From NCBI RefSeq assembly GCF_006539525.1, contig NZ_BJNE01000002.1, positions 1-64,000 of the forward strand: a stretch of 64,000 nt of DNA, written 5' to 3'. Position numbers and translations under genes: made by a program. The DNA comes from Glutamicibacter nicotianae (GTDB lineage Bacteria; Actinomycetota; Actinomycetes; Actinomycetales; Micrococcaceae). Positions 4,816-12,880 of this stretch are shown piece after piece (position 1 is the first letter of the stretch; every line of letters begins with the position of its first letter). The notes under the pieces are model-generated. The model ran no database searches and had not been told where the DNA came from. It was given only the letters and a program-made list of their open reading frames with translations.

Positions 4816-5580
4816 CTAGCCTCGCCCGATGTAGGGCATGCCGCCAGCGGTGATGGTGAATTGGTTGATGGACGTGCCCAATGGAACTCCGGCGATGTAT
4901 GCAACGGCTTCAGCGGCTTCGGCCAGCGGGAAGGTCGGCTCGACGAGCCGATGTCCACTGGGCTGCAAGGCTCCCTCGGTGGCGCCGAAATCATCGAGCA
5001 GGTCGCTGGCGGTGTTGCCGATATCGATCTGGGTGGCCCTGATCCGGTGCTCGCGCCCATCGAGTTCAAGGCATTTGGTCAGGCCGGCGATGCCGTGCTT
5101 GGTGACGGTATAGGCAACGGAGTTCACGCGCGGCACCTGCGCCGAAATCGACCCGTTGTTGATGATGCGTCCCCCGCCGTGCGCCTTGAAGTGGGTGAAC
5201 GCCGCCCGGGCGGCGTTGATGGCTCCGGTGAGGTTGATCCGGCACACCTCATCCCACTGGGCAGGGTCCAGCTCGTCGATGGCTGCCGGGGGACCGAAGA
5301 TCCCTGCATTATTGAACAGCACGTCGACCGATCCGAAACGCTCGGCGGCTGCGGCAAACAGCTGATCCACGGCCTGCGGATCACTGACATCGGTGGGGAC
5401 CACCAGGGCGGAGCCATGTCCTTGCGCCGTCTCGTGCAGCTTCTGCGCGGTGCGCCCGGCGAGCACCACATTCCATCCCTGCTCCAGCAGCAGGCGGGCG
5501 GTGGTGCGGCCGATGCCTGATCCTGCACCGGTGATGACGATGGTGCGCGGGGCGTGCGGGGCGTTAGATGCTTGGGACAT
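4816..5580 (-). CDS. SDR family oxidoreductase
   Basis: A 254-residue short-chain dehydrogenase/reductase. The cofactor loop TGAGSGIGRT sits near residue 20, the NNAG motif in DVLFNNAGIFG, the catalytic serine in NNGSISAQ, and the YxxxK pair in VAYTVTKHGIAG. These are the classical SDR tetrad elements. ATG 5580 is preferred over the longer frame because AAGGAG ends five bases upstream. The substrate is not predictable. It forms a small unit with the NTF2-like gene downstream. Confidence 0.92.
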   Translation of the reverse strand: MSQASNAPHAPRTIVITGAGSGIGRTTARLLLEQGWNVVLAGRTAQKLHETAQGHGSALVVPTDVSDPQAVDQLFAAAAERFGSVDVLFNNAGIFGPPAAIDELDPAQWDEVCRINLTGAINAARAAFTHFKAHGGGRIINNGSISAQVPRVNSVAYTVTKHGIAGLTKCLELDGREHRIRATQIDIGNTASDLLDDFGATEGALQPSGHRLVEPTFPLAEAAEAVAYIAGVPLGTSINQFTITAGGMPYIGRG

Positions 5581-5779
5581 CAATTCTCCTTGCGGAAATC
5601 TCAACGGCATTAGGGTGAGGCGCGTGGTCCCATCCTAGGAATTCGGGCCGCGAAACCCCAGTTTTCTTCTGCATGTTGCGTCGCATCCCCGGCCGCGTTT
5701 CCCGGATCAGCCTGGCCGGCTACTAACCTTGAAGTGGCCAATTCGCGCAATCCGGGCCGAATATCCCCGAAGGAGTCTT

Positions 5780-6796
5780 GTGTTCCTCGACGTGCTTTAT
5801 GGCGTGCTGCCGCTGTTCTTCGTCATGCTCATCGGCTACGCCGCCAGCCATGCTCCCAAGTTCCCGGCCAACGTGGAACCAGCACTGAACGTATTCGTCT
5901 TCTATGTCGCCCTGCCGGCCCTGCTCTACAAGGTGGTGGCCCGGGCGGACATCAGCGACGGCGTGCCGTTCGCATTCCTGTGGATCAGCATCGTCTCGGC
6001 ACTCGTGTTCGCGCTAATCAGCTGGCTGGCTTTCCGCTATCTGCTGCGCGCAGACCGGGCGCGGGCGCTCGCCGGCATGCTGGCCACCAGCTTTGGCAAC
6101 GTCTCGTATCTGGGCATCCCGATCGTCCTGGGCGTGATGGGAACCGAAGCCGGTTTCGCGGCGGGCATGGGGCAACTGGTCCACAACATCATCTTCATGG
6201 TCGGGTTCCCCATCCTCGCCCAAATCGTCCTGCCCCACGCAGGCGGAGGAGAGCACAAGGCCAGTGCTGCGCGCATTGCCCGAACCGTGCGCAACGCCCT
6301 GGTCTGCAGCCCGGTCACCTGGGCGATGCTCGTCGGCGGGGCGGTAGCAATCTTCGCAGTGCCGGTGCCGCAGCCGGTGGACGACACCATCGACCTGGTG
6401 GCCGCCGCGGCTGCTCCGGGCGCGCTCTTCGTCATCGGCATGTCGCTGAAGCGGACCATTGACCGAGCACGTTCCAGGCGCCGGGCGCCGGCGGCCGCGG
6501 ACGGTACCGCGCCAGCAGCCCGTTGGGCGAAAATTTCCATCGCCACCATGGTCGTGGGCAAGCTCGTGGCATTCCCCGTGCTGGTGGTGGCCATGCTGCT
6601 TGCCTTCGCCCCTGAGCTTGACCGCATCTGGTTCAATTCGGCGGTGCTCATGGCGGCCATGCCGGTGAGCGCGACCGCCTACATCATGGCGCAAAACGAC
6701 ACCGGGGATGGCGAACCGACCGCGGTAGCCATCGTCATCACCTGCGTCCTGTCGGTCATAGCATTGCCGGTGCTGGCGCAGCTGGCGCTGAAGTAG
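5780..6796 (+). CDS. AEC (auxin efflux carrier) family transporter
   Basis: A membrane protein of about 338 residues in the AEC family. These carriers move organic acids or auxin-like anions out of the cell. It has about ten hydrophobic segments in two halves joined by a charged loop (around residues 225-255, KRTIDRARSRRRAPAAADG). LPALLYKVVARADIS and GNVSYLGIPIVLGVMG are typical of the family. GTG 5780 is chosen for the AAGGAG four bases upstream and because it starts directly with the first hydrophobic helix. The substrate is unknown. Confidence 0.85.
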   Translation: MFLDVLYGVLPLFFVMLIGYAASHAPKFPANVEPALNVFVFYVALPALLYKVVARADISDGVPFAFLWISIVSALVFALISWLAFRYLLRADRARALAGMLATSFGNVSYLGIPIVLGVMGTEAGFAAGMGQLVHNIIFMVGFPILAQIVLPHAGGGEHKASAARIARTVRNALVCSPVTWAMLVGGAVAIFAVPVPQPVDDTIDLVAAAAAPGALFVIGMSLKRTIDRARSRRRAPAAADGTAPAARWAKISIATMVVGKLVAFPVLVVAMLLAFAPELDRIWFNSAVLMAAMPVSATAYIMAQNDTGDGEPTAVAIVITCVLSVIALPVLAQLALK

Positions 6797-6902
6797 CCTT
6801 CCGCGCAGTCCTTGACCTTTGCCCCGACCGGGGACAGGCTGGTAGCACCACATGCCAACCGGCGAGGAGCTTCCAGCCGCAGAGATGAGATGCAGGGATT
6901 GA

Positions 6903-7238
6903 ATGATGAAGTTTTCGCTGACCGCCATCGCCCGGGCCCAGCTGCGCGATGCCGAGAACGCCGGCAATGGCCGCGCCGCCAGCACGGTGTTCGGAGGCCA
7001 TGAGCACACGCTGCGCCAAACTGTCATCGGGATCAAGGCCGGCACCGAGCTGCAGGAGCATGCGAATCCCGGCGAAGCGACACTGCTGGTCCTCGACGGA
7101 AGGGTCACCGTCTCATCGATGGGCAACCAGTGGGAGGGGCGCAGCCAGGATCTGATCGTGCTGCCCGAAGGGCGGCTGAAAATCAGCGCTACCGAGGATT
7201 CCAGCGTGCTGCTCACGGTGGCCAAGACCGATCGCTAG
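6903..7238 (+). CDS. cupin-domain protein
   Basis: A 111-residue single cupin. The motif order is visible but partly degenerate: KAGTELQEHANPGEATLLVLDGRVTV in the middle, where one histidine and one glutamate remain of the metal site, and LIVLPEGRLKISA at the second motif, with no second histidine. It may therefore bind ligand without catalysis. ATG 6903 and ATG 6906 are both possible. A strong terminator follows. Confidence 0.75.
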   Translation: MMKFSLTAIARAQLRDAENAGNGRAASTVFGGHEHTLRQTVIGIKAGTELQEHANPGEATLLVLDGRVTVSSMGNQWEGRSQDLIVLPEGRLKISATEDSSVLLTVAKTDR

Positions 7239-7306: not shown

Positions 7307-9580
7307 CTAGACGCTGACCGCGTGCTTCTCCCGGTCTTCGTTGGCGCTTGCGCCGGCCGCGGCCTGCGCGTCAGCCAGTTCCCCGGCTTCGGCATCGATG
7401 CCATCGGCCGATGCAGCGGCTTCGCTCGCCTTGGCGTCGCGCTGGCGGCCCTGCAGGGCCGCGAGCTCTTCGGCGGACACCGGGTGGGCTTCGGCATGCA
7501 CCGGCTTGAGCTGGTCGATGACCAGGGTCAGCGCCAGGCTGGCCAGGGCCCAGATGCCCAGGACCACCAGATGGGACGAGAGGCCGGCCCCGTCGAAGTA
7601 GATGATCGCGCGGATCGCTTCAACGGCCGCAGGCATCGGCAAGATGTCGTGCAGGATGGCGAAGATGCGCGGTTCCATGTAGATGGACAGTGCGCCGTTG
7701 GAGGCCGGGACGCCCAGGAACATCACGATCAGCATGGTCGGGAGCAGGCAGACCATGCCCATGAGCCGATTGAACACGGTGGTGAGCATGGCCACCGAGA
7801 AGATCGCGAGCATGCCGGTGCCGAACAACTGCCAGAAGCGGCCCTCGACCGCACCGGTGAACGGTCCGGCAATCAGGTAGAGCACGGCTGACATGAAGGC
7901 GGAGTACACGGCCACCAGCGGGATCAGATTCTGCAGCGGGCGCAGGTGCGGTGCCGCGGTGGAACCCACCATGATGACCATGAAGCCTGCCATCACCCAA
8001 CCCATGCCCAGATACATGACCACGGTGCCCATATTGTCGTGCTCCGGAAGCGGCGCCAGTTCCCGGTGGTCCACGGACATGTCCTGGGCCTGGCTGATCT
8101 GGGTGAATACCTGCACAACTACCTGCGAGGCGGCGTTGCCGGAAGCCTGGGCGGTGTAAATGGTTGCCTCGGGATCCTGCTTCGATGGCAGCACGAACGC
8201 TCCGGCCAGTTCCCGGGATTCGACCAGATAGCGGGCGTCGCCGGCGTTGTCCATGGCGGTGAAGGTGAACTTGTCCTCCATGGATTCCTTCAGCGAATCC
8301 ACCGTCTGCTGGGCCTGCTCCATGGAGGAACCCACGACCGCTACCGGCATCTCGCGCGGAGCCGGGGTCTGCATGGCGCCAAGCATGGAGCTGAGCATGA
8401 TGGCGATCATGGCGAAAGGCACCGCGCCCAGGGTGATGTAGCGCCAGGCCTTGTTCTTCGGGCGCGGGCCGCCATGCAGGGAAGGGACATTGATCTGGGT
8501 CGGGATATCGCTCTTGCCCTTGGCGGTGCGCAGCGCATCGATCAGGGCGACCAGCAGCAGCGCTGCCACGGCCCCGCCGGCAAGGATCAGGATATGCACG
8601 CCCGCACCGTCTCCATCGAAGTACAGCACCGAACGCATGGCTTCGCCCAGGGCCGGCATCGGCAGGAACTGGTGCAGGAACGGGAAGATCTTCGGCAGCA
8701 TGTAGACCGACATTCCCATATTGGAGGCCGGCTGGCCCAGCACCATGAACAGGAACATGCCCGGGATGACAGCCATGGCACCGAAGATGCGGGTCAGCAG
8801 CAGCTGGCCTGCGCCCACGGCGAAGACACCCAGGGCCAAGGTGCCCCACGCTGGCAGGATGGTGGCTGCGTGGAGCACGCCGAGGATCGGGCCGCCGACC
8901 AGGATGCCCAGTCCCGAGAGCAGGATCGACCATCCGCCCAGCAGCGGCAGCGCCCTGCGGCGCCGCAGCAGCTCGGGGGAGTTCGAGTAGGCCAGCGACC
9001 ACGGCATGTAGCCGGCGGTAATCATCGCGGTGGCCAGCAGCATGGCGCCCATGCCCATGGAATCATCCGCCGGAAGCGGCTTCAGGTCCTCGGACACCAG
9101 CTCAAGACCCTCTTCCAGGACCACCGGCGTGAGCACGGCCTTGATGGCCGACGATGCGGAGACGCCTGCACCGCTTGCGGTGTACATGGTGGCGGTCTTG
9201 CCGTCGAGGTCAACGGCGGCTGTCACTTCGCGGTCATAGACCAGCTCGCGGGCTTCGCGCGGCGAATCGACAATGCGCAGGTCAACTGCATCCCCGTTGC
9301 CAGCTTCGAGCGTGCGGACGAAGTCCTCTGCCTTCTCAGTGCTGGTGGCGGAAATGGCCACCGGCATGTTCTTGGCTTCCTGCTGGTGCATGGCTCCGAG
9401 GTAGCCCCAAATCATCATGCCCACGATCATCAATGGCATGATGAAGACTGCTACAGTCCTGCCGATCTTCTCGGCCTTGGCGCGTTTGGCGGCCGCTTCC
9501 TGCTCGGAGAGCGGCTGCTTCTCGTGCTTGGCCCTGCGGGAGGGCGGCGGGTTTTCAGTGACTGCGGCGTCGTTGCTCAA
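7307..9580 (-). CDS. YhgE/ABC-2-like membrane protein with internal duplication
   Basis: A 757-residue membrane protein resembling YhgE/Pip-type and ABC-2 permease-like proteins: a first helix, a large extracytoplasmic domain, then several helices. The whole module occurs twice. MPVAIS at residue 72 matches MPVAVV at 411, LPADDSMG at 169 matches LPEHDNMG at 511, and GQPASNMGMSVYMLPKIF at 282 matches GVPASNGALSIYMEPRIF at 623. The offset is about 340 throughout. The C-terminus is acidic and alanine-rich. The start TTG 9580 has AAGGAG nine bases upstream. The adjacent divergent TetR gene and its operator suggest repressor control. Export or envelope function is inferred, not shown. Confidence 0.82.
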   Translation of the reverse strand: MSNDAAVTENPPPSRRAKHEKQPLSEQEAAAKRAKAEKIGRTVAVFIMPLMIVGMMIWGYLGAMHQQEAKNMPVAISATSTEKAEDFVRTLEAGNGDAVDLRIVDSPREARELVYDREVTAAVDLDGKTATMYTASGAGVSASSAIKAVLTPVVLEEGLELVSEDLKPLPADDSMGMGAMLLATAMITAGYMPWSLAYSNSPELLRRRRALPLLGGWSILLSGLGILVGGPILGVLHAATILPAWGTLALGVFAVGAGQLLLTRIFGAMAVIPGMFLFMVLGQPASNMGMSVYMLPKIFPFLHQFLPMPALGEAMRSVLYFDGDGAGVHILILAGGAVAALLLVALIDALRTAKGKSDIPTQINVPSLHGGPRPKNKAWRYITLGAVPFAMIAIMLSSMLGAMQTPAPREMPVAVVGSSMEQAQQTVDSLKESMEDKFTFTAMDNAGDARYLVESRELAGAFVLPSKQDPEATIYTAQASGNAASQVVVQVFTQISQAQDMSVDHRELAPLPEHDNMGTVVMYLGMGWVMAGFMVIMVGSTAAPHLRPLQNLIPLVAVYSAFMSAVLYLIAGPFTGAVEGRFWQLFGTGMLAIFSVAMLTTVFNRLMGMVCLLPTMLIVMFLGVPASNGALSIYMEPRIFAILHDILPMPAAVEAIRAIIYFDGAGLSSHLVVLGIWALASLALTLVIDQLKPVHAEAHPVSAEELAALQGRQRDAKASEAAASADGIDAEAGELADAQAAAGASANEDREKHAVSV

Positions 9581-9662
9581 CTACGCATGCTCCTTGGATT
9601 CTCGGTCAGCGGCGGGATGCGCGGCACCCCGGCAAGATTATTAGTTGAATACTGACAACCAA

Positions 9663-9682
9663 TTTACGCCACATGGCGTAAA
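9663..9682. promoter_or_regulatory. TetR-type operator
   Basis: TTTACGCCA and its exact complement TGGCGTAAA are separated by two bases. The site lies between the divergent YhgE-like gene and the TetR gene, and a plausible rightward -10 (TACAAT, 9689-9694) follows. It is placed to repress both genes. Confidence 0.7.
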
Positions 9683-9752
9683 ACTATCTACAATTGTGCC
9701 GAGGTTCACTGCCTTGGCACCTGGGTGCGGTGACGAAAGGGAAGGCGGGGCG

Positions 9753-10406
9753 GTGAGCCGACACGGGGAAAAAGCACGGGAGGTTCTGCTCGATGCGGCA
9801 GAAGAGCTCTTCGCGAGCTATGGGATTGATGCCGTATCGAATCGGAAAATTGCCGAACATGCCGGCACTGCCAACCACTCGGCGATCAAATACCATTTCG
9901 GGAGCCGCCAGGATTTGCTGGAAGCCATGCTGCAACGGGCGCTGGCTGACATGCGTCGCTGCCGTGCTGCGCTGCCATCAGCCGCTGGTGGGCCGCAAGC
10001 CAGCCTGCGCGAACTGGTCACCGTGCAGGCTCTTCCCTGGGTGTATTCCTTTGATGCATTGGGCAGGCCATCCTGGCGGGCGCAATTCCTCTTCCAAGCG
10101 CGCCTGCACCCGGACCTGCCATCGATCGTTGGCGACAGCCTGCGTGATGAGGTGCTGGGTGCCGCGGCTCAAGGCCGGGAGCTTAAGGAATTCGAGGGCA
10201 TTCCCGAGATGGTGGTCAAATCGCGTGCGCTGATCCTTGGTCCGATGTTCCTGGGGCTATGCGCGCAGTACGAGCGCACGGTCAACGAGGGCAGGCAGCG
10301 GGGCAACTGGGAGTCCGTGGGCTACTTCCTGGTTGATTCCATGGTGGGCATGCTGGCGGCGCCAAGCACTGCACCGGCCGATTTCATGGGATTCGCAGAG
10401 GGGTAG
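9753..10406 (+). CDS. TetR family transcriptional regulator
   Basis: About 217 residues. The N-terminal helix-turn-helix is clear: AREVLLDAAEELFASYG, then NRKIAEHAGTANHSAIKYHFGSRQDLL. The C-terminal ligand domain is unassigned. GTG 9753 is preferred because upstream starts would place the operator inside the gene; a purine-rich GAAGGCGGGG precedes it. It is divergent from the duplicated YhgE-like gene with a perfect dyad between them, a standard arrangement for a local repressor that senses an exported compound. Confidence 0.85.
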   Translation: MSRHGEKAREVLLDAAEELFASYGIDAVSNRKIAEHAGTANHSAIKYHFGSRQDLLEAMLQRALADMRRCRAALPSAAGGPQASLRELVTVQALPWVYSFDALGRPSWRAQFLFQARLHPDLPSIVGDSLRDEVLGAAAQGRELKEFEGIPEMVVKSRALILGPMFLGLCAQYERTVNEGRQRGNWESVGYFLVDSMVGMLAAPSTAPADFMGFAEG

Positions 10407-10913: not shown

Positions 10914-11031
10914 GGTGGCACAAGGTTCCACGAAACCAGCATCGAGTCGAAGCCGAAGTCTCCTTCGGTGGTAAGGGTGTTCAGCCAAGGTCCGTGGAAA
11001 GAACGACCGTTTGAAAAGAGCTGATCACCCG

Positions 11032-11526
11032 ATGCGACTAGACGTATTCAATCAATTGCCCGCAGCCGAGGCGGCAGATGTCCTGCGCCCCTGCGTGGAT
11101 GTCGACCGCTGGATCGATGCACTTGTTTCCGCCCGTCCTTTCAACAGCTTCGATGAGCTTTCCAGCTATGCGCTGCAGGACGTCGCCCCCTTCAACCGCG
11201 AGGAAATCGCCGCCGCCTTGGCGCACCACCCGCGCATCGGCGAACAAGCGCAGGGCAGCAGCAAGGAAGCCGACCTCTCGCGTGGCGAACAGGCAGGCCT
11301 GGACTTTGATGGCGATGTCACCTCACGCCTGGCCGCGGCCAACAAGGCCTACGAGCAGCGCTTCAACCGGGTCTTCCTCATCCGCGCCGCTGGCCGCAGC
11401 TCCGAAGAAATCCTCGCCGAATGCGAACGCCGGCTGGCCAATGGCGAGCAGGAAGAACTTCTTGAGGTTGCCGAGCAGCTGCGCCAGATCGCGCTGCTGC
11501 GGCTGCAGAACGCGGTGGACAACTAA
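11032..11526 (+). CDS. uraD: 2-oxo-4-hydroxy-4-carboxy-5-ureidoimidazoline decarboxylase
   Basis: OHCU decarboxylase, the last step from urate to (S)-allantoin in the cytosol. About 164 residues from ATG 11032; TTG 11011 is an alternative that adds seven residues. Family marks: FNQLPAAEAADVLRPC at the N-terminus, ALAHHPRIGE around residue 70 with the catalytic histidine, SRGEQAGLD, and YEQRFNRVFLIRAAGRSSEEILAECERR in the C-terminal half. It is first of a four-gene set (uraD, uraH, uricase, permease) with short gaps. The 5' region carries two candidate IclR-type dyads. Confidence 0.93.
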   Translation: MRLDVFNQLPAAEAADVLRPCVDVDRWIDALVSARPFNSFDELSSYALQDVAPFNREEIAAALAHHPRIGEQAQGSSKEADLSRGEQAGLDFDGDVTSRLAAANKAYEQRFNRVFLIRAAGRSSEEILAECERRLANGEQEELLEVAEQLRQIALLRLQNAVDN

Positions 11527-11595
11527 GCCAATGCCCGGGGTGCACACCCCGCGCATTTACCGACCCCTTATCCCTCCGACAGCCAGGAGATGAAC

Positions 11596-11952
11596 ATGGC
11601 AGATGGCAACGGCGAACGCAGCCACATCACCACCCACATACTCGACACCGGGACCGGGAGGCCTGCCTCCGGTGTCAAGGCCACGCTGGAAGCCAAGACG
11701 GCATCCGGCTGGCAAGAAATCGGTTCAGGTTCCACGGATGCCGATGGCCGCATCAAAAACCTCGGACCGGTACAGGTTGAAGCCGGCCGCTACCGGATTT
11801 CCTTTGAGACCGGCGGCTACTTCGGGAAGCAGGGAACGGAAAGCTTCTTCCCCGCGGTAAGCATCGATTTCTTCGTCAATGACGTCGACGAGCACTACCA
11901 CGTACCTCTTCTTATCAGCCCGTTTGCATATTCCACGTACCGAGGAAGTTAG
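11596..11952 (+). CDS. uraH: 5-hydroxyisourate hydrolase
   Basis: A transthyretin-related hydrolase that converts 5-hydroxyisourate, the uricase product, into OHCU. It has 118 residues. SHITTHILDTGTGRPA at the N-terminus, RYRISFETGGYF in the middle and the C-terminal YHVPLLISPFAYSTYRGS are diagnostic; the final YRGS and the histidines form the active site. ATG 11596 is chosen over ATG 11590 because AGGAG lies six bases upstream of it. The uricase ribosome site overlaps this stop, which indicates coupled translation. Confidence 0.95.
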   Translation: MADGNGERSHITTHILDTGTGRPASGVKATLEAKTASGWQEIGSGSTDADGRIKNLGPVQVEAGRYRISFETGGYFGKQGTESFFPAVSIDFFVNDVDEHYHVPLLISPFAYSTYRGS

Positions 11953-11956
11953 AACC

Positions 11957-12880
11957 ATGACTACCGAAATCACCGCCCCAGCAGACACCAAGATTGTGCT
12001 GGGCTCTAACCAGTACGGCAAGGCCGAAGTCCGCCTGGTCAAGATCACCCGCGACACGGTTCGCCACCAGATCCAGGATCTGAACGTCACCAGCCAGCTG
12101 CACGGCGACTTCACCGCCGCGCACCAGGATGGCGACAATGGTCGCGTTGTCGCCACCGACACCCAGAAGAACACCGTCTATGGCTTGGCCCGCAACGGCG
12201 TGGGTGCCATCGAGGAGTTCCTGGTGCAGCTTGGCGAGCACTTCACCGGGGAATTCGATTGGATCACCGGTGGCCGCTGGGCAGCCCAGCAGTTCTTCTG
12301 GGACCGCATCAACGACCACGACCACGCCTTCTCGCAGAACAAGTCCGAGTTCCGCACCGCCGTGCTGGAAATCGGCGCCGACGGCAAGAAGTCGATCGTT
12401 GCAGGCCTGGAAGACCTCACCGTGCTGAAGTCCACGGGCAGCGAATTCCACGGCTTCCCGCGGGACAAGTACACGACACTGAAGGAAACCACCGACCGCA
12501 TCCTGGCCACCGACGTGACCGCGCGCTGGCGCTACACCGAGCAGGCCATCGCCGAGGGCATCGACTTCGACGCGGTCTACACCTCGGTGCGCCAGCTGCT
12601 GCTGACCCGCTTCGCCGACACCCACTCGTACGCGTTGCAGCAGACCATGTTCCAGATGGGGCAGGCAGTGCTCGAAGCGCATCCGGAAATCGCCGAGATC
12701 AAGATGTCGCTTCCGAACAAGCACCACTTCCTGGTGGACCTCGAGGTCTTCGGCCAGGACAACCCGAACGAGGTCTTCTTCGCGGCTGACCGCCCGTACG
12801 GCCTGATCGAAGCGACGATCACCCGCGAAGGCACCGAGGCGAATCACCCGATCTGGGCAAATATTCCGGCATTTATCTAA
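11957..12880 (+). CDS. pucL: urate oxidase (uricase)
   Basis: Cofactor-free uricase that oxidises urate to 5-hydroxyisourate. It has 307 residues, close to the roughly 300 usual for arthrobacter uricases, built from two T-fold halves. SNQYGKAEVRLVKI (catalytic lysine region), VVATDTQKNTVYGLA (catalytic threonine region), FSQNKSEFRTA and LPNKHHFLVDL near residue 255 (catalytic histidine region) are all present. The start lies four bases after the uraH stop, with the ribosome site inside uraH. A stem-loop separates it from the permease gene. Confidence 0.96.
   Translation: MTTEITAPADTKIVLGSNQYGKAEVRLVKITRDTVRHQIQDLNVTSQLHGDFTAAHQDGDNGRVVATDTQKNTVYGLARNGVGAIEEFLVQLGEHFTGEFDWITGGRWAAQQFFWDRINDHDHAFSQNKSEFRTAVLEIGADGKKSIVAGLEDLTVLKSTGSEFHGFPRDKYTTLKETTDRILATDVTARWRYTEQAIAEGIDFDAVYTSVRQLLLTRFADTHSYALQQTMFQMGQAVLEAHPEIAEIKMSLPNKHHFLVDLEVFGQDNPNEVFFAADRPYGLIEATITREGTEANHPIWANIPAFI

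Follow-up and report, generated by a model that had tools for sequence, protein, structure and literature searches.

The window, a stretch of 64,000 nucleotides from Glutamicibacter nicotianae, contains a gene for a 757-residue membrane protein composed of two tandem modules, here called N and C. A TetR-family regulator is encoded divergently, with an operator between the two genes. The features of the locus, in window coordinates, are as follows.

7307-9580, minus strand: tandem two-module ABC-2-type membrane protein, 757 aa, TTG start
9053-9385, minus strand: N extracytoplasmic domain, alpha/beta, residues 66-176
8513-9472, minus strand: N module, residues 37-356, comprising TM1, the extracytoplasmic domain and TM2-TM6, delimited by a module HMM and the model helices
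8606-8737, minus strand: GQPASN...LPMP...YFDG block of the N module, residues 282-325, between helices 5 and 6
8453-8530, minus strand: inter-module linker, residues 351-376, predicted cytoplasmic
7490-8455, minus strand: C module, residues 376-697, with the same order of elements as the N module, delimited by module HMM and model
8027-8371, minus strand: C extracytoplasmic domain, residues 404-518, placed by homologous position in the repeat
7589-7714, minus strand: GVPASN...LPMP...YFDG block of the C module, residues 623-664
9663-9682, no strand: operator TTTACGCCA-CA-TGGCGTAAA, the genome's only site at up to 3 mismatches
9753-10406, plus strand: divergent TetR-family regulator, reading frame open from 9645, probable GTG start at 9753 placed by comparison with relatives

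The plus-strand reading of 7307-9580 is interrupted by a stop. The initial annotation had read the minus-strand product as two tandem copies of one module, a description that turned on the similarity of the two halves. Aligned with BLASTP, the halves are significantly similar, with 33% identity and 53% positives over 324 aa, 4 gap positions and 179 bits (E 6e-55, assuming a database of 100,000 letters). Their Smith-Waterman score is 471, compared with 42 +/- 6 (maximum 68) for 300 full shuffles and 59 +/- 14 (maximum 120) for 300 shuffles in 12-residue blocks. Block shuffling preserves local hydrophobicity, and these controls rule out a chance likeness of membrane helices. The repeat is offset by 339-342 residues, constant save for two small gaps, close to the constant offset of about 340 that had been claimed, and the PASN, LPMP and YFDG blocks at 284-323 do recur, at 625-664. 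In a search of the genome with a limit of E 10, the only other match is a single-module paralogue (C4:7658-8761, E 1.6e-23).

For comparison, 80 of 97 confirmed loci were kept as named relatives. They come from genera that include Glutamicibacter, Arthrobacter, Paeniglutamicibacter, Galactobacter, Kocuria, Rothia, Brevibacterium, Microbacterium, Leucobacter, Oerskovia, Dietzia, Corynebacterium, Rhodococcus, Nocardia, Gordonia and Micromonospora. Four of the 80 (L133, L154, L156 and L159) were excluded as alignment candidates, and 58 of the remaining 76 were aligned with the window's protein to give 59 sequences (alignment A2). Within the linker, HGG.RP is invariant in 14/14 near relatives, and G371 and P374 are each conserved in at least 90% of the 59 sequences.

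Within the genus, 10 of 18 genomes carry the tandem gene, four have a single-module gene only and four have no match. Eight of the ten copies are intact, one has an in-frame stop (G013:C1:2286865-2289057) and one is in two pieces (G014:C20:358667-360864). The tandem gene is thus an accessory function, being absent from 8 of the 18 genomes and apparently broken in 2 of its 10 copies. The broken copies look like signs that the function is dispensable in some strains, or else like assembly errors. A near-full-length tandem match occurs in 31 of 245 genomes of the family (counted as rows). In a sample of the phylum, 45 of 396 genomes have a match and most matching stretches correspond to one module, single-module homologues of ~340-500 aa being common. 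Nine of 199 Streptomyces-like genomes match at E <=1e-40, four of them with both modules in one open frame.

By profile, the protein belongs with the ABC-2 membrane proteins. Pfam PF12698 (ABC2_membrane_3) matches it in two stretches at 47.2 bits, above the gathering cut-off of 31.6, and matches 42 of the 59 relatives at E <=0.001. The YhgE/Pip profile TIGR03062 matches 55 of the 59 at the same threshold but gives the protein itself 31.3 bits, below the curated NCBIfam cut-off of 102.2. Of the earlier label 'YhgE-like', distant sequence similarity to YhgE/Pip (PIP family, TC 9.B.74) therefore stands and curated membership does not. The defining feature of YhgE/Pip proteins is an extracellular domain of very large size that separates TM1 from TM2, whereas the extracytoplasmic domains here are small, at ~110 aa, and come with two modules per chain. 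The same genome also encodes a YhgE/Pip-type protein of 782 aa (G000:C18:10817-13018; L201, L202), whose extracellular insert is long and repetitive. In the accessible text of PMC3924187, a single-module Streptomyces coelicolor protein of 357 aa and 6 TMS is placed in 9.B.74.4.1.

The weak TIGR03062 similarity, and a lack of any motor, would also suit a non-transporter, that is, a membrane scaffold, receptor or sensor comparable to EsaA/YueB/Pip, with TetR controlling the display of the extracytoplasmic domains. According to the accessible part of PMC4999554, those Pip proteins that have been characterised act as phage receptors or are linked to secretion. We regard such a role as improbable, given that the domains lack the long repetitive insert of the 782-aa protein, that the membrane and re-entrant blocks are strongly conserved, and that no type VII secretion genes were noted alongside among the selected neighbour families annotated.

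An AlphaFold2 model of the single chain, built on the 59-sequence alignment, reaches a pLDDT of 87.5 and a pTM of 0.83. In each half, a basic pre-helix leads into TM1, followed by an alpha/beta extracytoplasmic domain and TM2-TM6; the TM5-TM6 region is broken and contains the PASN...LPMP...YFDG block. The initial annotation had proposed such a prediction as a check, and the outcome is two ABC-2 modules that superpose on the membrane halves of Pdr5 and Cdr1. Using VIA-align, a single protomer matches ABCG-type membrane domains with Z up to 18.0 (212 residues, 3.4 A), a score to be read with the caution that high Z is easier to reach for helical proteins. Full-length Pdr5 (7p04) aligns across both halves at Z 13.9 (362 residues, 3.7 A) and Cdr1 (9iuk) likewise at Z 13.9 (360 residues, 3.4 A). 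Overall, the Pdr5 and Cdr1 entries cover 360-366 residues at 3.4-3.8 A within model residues 169-695, and with ABCA included the range is 355-366 residues over both halves at 3.4-4.2 A. Foldseek E-values are modest, the best being 2.5e-4 for Tribolium ABCH-9C. A PDB sequence search gave nothing useful, the best hit of its profile version being glutamyl phosphate reductase at E 0.36. The predicted structure, which is not a solved one, has the membrane-domain fold of ABC-2 (type V) exporters, dimer arrangement included. That the single chain supplies both membrane halves of an ABC-2 exporter as a pseudo-dimer is well supported by the model, most strongly by the simultaneous fit of Pdr5, Cdr1 and ABCA across both halves.

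All of the 50 fold matches listed are ABC-type exporters, counting 8k1m and 8k1n, which we take to be entries of an ABC-type exporter, the mycobacterial efflux pump Rv1217c/Rv1218c. This bears on a proton-driven pump of the RND/MmpL type. RND proteins have the order TM1, extracytoplasmic domain, TM2-6, repeated, which is the order seen here, and the presence of TetR and absence of an ATPase would agree. No RND protein is among the 50 matches listed, an absence that by itself does not decide against the fold. Pfam, searched up to E 1, returns ABC2_membrane_3 but no RND family. We consider the RND reading very improbable.

Among known systems, full-length PDR/ABCG proteins (Pdr5, Cdr1) and ABCA share with the tandem protein the presence of two ABC-2 membrane domains per chain, but their chains carry ATPase domains and this one carries none. 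ABCH-9C has a similar extracytoplasmic domain and shows 9-12% identity. Its ligand is ceramide, and it is a half transporter with its own ATPase, its entries binding ATP. Modelled alone (pLDDT 82), the N extracytoplasmic domain matches that of ABCH-9C at Z 8.5 (89 residues, 2.3 A) and the ABC-2 exporter domain 3cni at Z 8.0 over 100 of its 111 residues; LysR effector domains and PBP2-type lipoproteins match it at similar Z. The Mycobacterium tuberculosis pump Rv1217c/Rv1218c, with its TetR regulator RaaS (Rv1219c), resembles the present system in having a 12-helix ABC-2-type permease under TetR, and 8k1m/8k1n match the model at Z 11.7 (346 residues, 5.7 A). It differs in that Rv1217c has an ATPase subunit, whereas none is linked to the tandem gene; unlike Rv1217c, each half of the tandem protein bears an extracytoplasmic domain, and chains 8k1m_B and 8k1n_C have 529-530 residues against 757 here. 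No description of the fused family, or of a mechanism for it, was found in the literature searched.

The two modules form separate lineages. In the module tree, the N clade (support 100/100) and the C clade (100/99) are sisters, joined at 100/99, and this separation rules out a recent duplication or gene conversion between the halves. A first tree contained 68/69 modules, with the broken L050 copy removed by name; pieces that matched fewer than 200 positions of the profile were left out, namely the L079 fragment, the L050 N pieces and three DUF3533 neighbours. The clade-support tree was built without L048, L049, L051, L053, L054, L056, L059, L060, L062, L064 and L067. The same bacterial family contains a second tandem group with the same module and tandem order, fused in L068, L069, L070, L072 and L076 and split into adjacent genes in L071, L073, L074 (with a 4-bp overlap) and L075. 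Its fused form lies beside a FUSC_2 gene, which in L068 overlaps the fused gene by 4 bp, and its split form lies beside another TetR gene. A single duplication common to both tandem groups is rejected when either their N modules or their C modules are constrained together (AU p 0.0007 and 6.6e-5), so the duplication has occurred at least twice, independently in the two groups.

An unfused counterpart of the window's gene is found on a plasmid of Streptomyces sp. NBC_00564 (NZ_CP107787.1, L207), where genes for proteins of 348 aa (4977-6023) and 365 aa (6062-7159) lie side by side, each annotated as 'ABC transporter permease'. In a tree thinned by eighteen further single-module loci, the first branches deepest within the N clade (100/99), and the second groups with the C clade at weaker support (92/61). 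The divergent TetR beside this pair is a different one, and no operator can be recognised. The pair may predate the fusion or may stem from a subsequent fission. Obligate partners would be expected to occur in both arrangements, fused and as adjacent genes.

The two halves are conserved separately. Across the 59 sequences, 24 paired positions are conserved at >=95% in both halves, 22 in the N half only and 13 in the C half only, 'one half only' meaning >=95% in one half and <70% in the other. In four species pairs, the two modules have dN/dS values of 0.06-0.24, which indicates that both are under purifying selection. Judged from this separate conservation of each half, the protein is a covalent pseudo-heterodimer whose halves are not interchangeable. 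The initial annotation had inferred a fused pseudo-dimer. The dimer-like architecture is upheld by the two-half fit to Pdr5 and Cdr1, by the common single-module homologues and by unfused pairs in both duplicated lineages; any equivalence of the halves is not, N and C having diverged. The fusion could instead be irrelevant to the oligomeric state, a chance duplication with halves that act alone or assemble further, and single-module homologues, presumably functional, do exist. We give this very little weight, since two modules are retained in all 80 of the named relatives, which range from Micrococcaceae to Micromonospora, duplication took place independently twice, selection acts on both modules, and both membrane domains of Pdr5 and of Cdr1 are fitted at once.

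The initial annotation also placed the gene under a TetR with a perfect operator. The regulator has a TetR_N domain (44.9 bits, cut-off 24), and the linkage is borne out among the named relatives, 70 of 80 having an immediately divergent TetR gene. The other ten include seven with none in the sequence covered, one with a displaced gene and two at contig ends. At the locus L057 (G224) / L089 (Paeniglutamicibacter antarcticus), a gene is inserted between the TetR and tandem genes and the TetR gene is inverted. The operator is perfect in its 9-bp arms but asymmetric at its two central bases. The site TTTACGCCACgTGGCGTAAA occurs at up to 3 mismatches in 30 of the 70 TetR loci, and a diverged form (TTTAAGnCA..TGkCkTAA) at 4-6 mismatches in another 39, one locus having none. 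Shuffles of the regions (20 each) gave means of 8.4-9.6 mismatches and minima of 5-9; single sites at 5-6 mismatches are therefore insignificant alone, and it is the shared form that counts. A scan of 9560-9790 found no sigma-70 promoter, and the only terminator-like match there is the operator itself. A single operator site in the genome fits a dedicated local regulator, and the TetR protein probably represses the tandem gene.

Just downstream of the tandem gene and on the opposite strand lie a gene that weakly matches cupin (6903-7238, plus strand) and a transporter gene of the Mem_trans (auxin-efflux-carrier) type (5729-6796, plus strand). The TetR gene is followed on the plus strand by a urate degradation cluster (OHCU decarboxylase, HIUase and uricase; 11011-12880). 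A uricase-family gene lies near TetR in all 10 genus loci compared, the window included, and was not among the neighbours in other genera; we take its proximity to be local synteny. In several Arthrobacter loci (L058, L059 and L060, and also L094, L099, L112, L136 and L161), TetR is adjoined by a DUF3533 gene of the SNG1 type or by another distantly ABC-2-like gene, which shares the tandem gene's strand; Pfam was run on the L058 copy only. TetR or MarR genes also adjoin some of the single-module genes.

A complete ABC transporter would have an ATPase in its chain, encoded alongside or recruited in trans. Pfam finds no ABC_tran domain in the tandem protein itself, and an iterated NBD profile matches none of 156 immediate neighbours across the 80 loci. 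The profile found the ATPases at 4/4 control loci, including known ones that a regular-expression screen had missed, and can give false positives, as it did for an L201 reading frame with no Pfam match. NBD-like genes occur farther out, in 8/154 cases at two genes' distance, 2/151 at three and 5/142 at four, and have no conserved position across the 80 loci; Pfam found one ABC_tran stretch in one of two such genes checked and two in the other. All four classical ABC2_membrane_3 permeases in the same genome have an ABC_tran match ~0.5-0.6 kb away, and the nearest to the tandem gene on its contig is ~15 kb away. The single-module paralogue and the 782-aa protein likewise lack any nearby ABC_tran match.

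In ABC-2 exporters, the cytoplasmic TM2-TM3 loop houses the coupling helix. Here this loop is predicted to be cytoplasmic and is positively charged, with a gap of ~6 residues between helices in the AlphaFold2 model. It spans 14 residues in both halves, from S199 to P212 in 56/59 sequences of the N half and from 541 to 554 in 59/59 of the C half. The four ATPase-partnered permeases have ~20 polar residues there as read by eye. A regular expression for the coupling-helix motif recognised 2/4 of these controls and is given no weight here. The short loop weakly suggests, from these four comparison proteins, that no ATPase docks.

An ordinary ABC exporter permease might still recruit in trans an ATPase encoded elsewhere, like systems that share ATPases. 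The protein resembles ATP-driven exporters in its ABC-2 fold and in the geometry of its two modules, the genome has 90 ABC_tran matches at E <=1e-10, and Rv1217c/Rv1218c, in the accessible parts of PMC4155686 and PMC7761784, is a TetR-linked 12-helix ABC-2 permease with an ATPase subunit. Considering the immediate neighbours free of NBD-like genes, the relatives in the same genome that also lack a close ABC_tran match, and the short loop in both halves, we think recruitment in trans unlikely, though it merits serious attention. ABC-2-type proteins with no linked ATPase (Pip, YhgE, SNG1/DUF3533 and their kin) are common, and no explanation of how they work was found in the literature searched.

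On balance, we lean towards reading the tandem protein as a TetR-controlled, pseudo-heterodimeric exporter of amphipathic compounds that has no dedicated ATPase. One chain would supply the whole membrane portion of an ABC-2 (type V) exporter, its two six-helix modules arranged as a pseudo-heterodimer around one path. In the model, helix 1 of each module is followed by an alpha/beta extracytoplasmic domain, and a re-entrant LPMP loop separates helices 5 and 6. The dedicated divergent TetR would repress the gene at the one palindromic operator and would probably be released on binding the substrate or a related metabolite. The job of the protein would be to export an amphipathic small molecule or lipid, or to flip it outwards, with no ATPase of its own; the proton motive force or the gradient of the substrate itself would provide the energy. 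The guess of amphipathic export is based on the ABC-2 fold, the dedicated TetR, the relatives adjoining FUSC_2, TetR or MarR genes, and the mycobacterial precedent. There, the TetR of the 12-helix ABC-2 efflux permease senses acyl-CoA, according to the accessible parts of PMC4155686 and PMC7761784.

The initial observation of a duplicated module is confirmed and the pseudo-dimer reading is supported and sharpened, and the point of interest becomes how such a protein might be energised with no linked ATPase. More tentatively, the family may represent an actinobacteria-wide class of exporters in which each chain holds a full two-half ABC-2 channel, the ATPase has been shed in favour of another energy source, and the halves have specialised, for example in substrate entry versus gating. 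The protein is a heterodimer occurring naturally in one chain, has a TetR of its own and has unfused relatives. This makes it a handy subject for structure determination and half-by-half mutation, and it would allow a direct test of ATP-independent transport by an ABC-2 channel.
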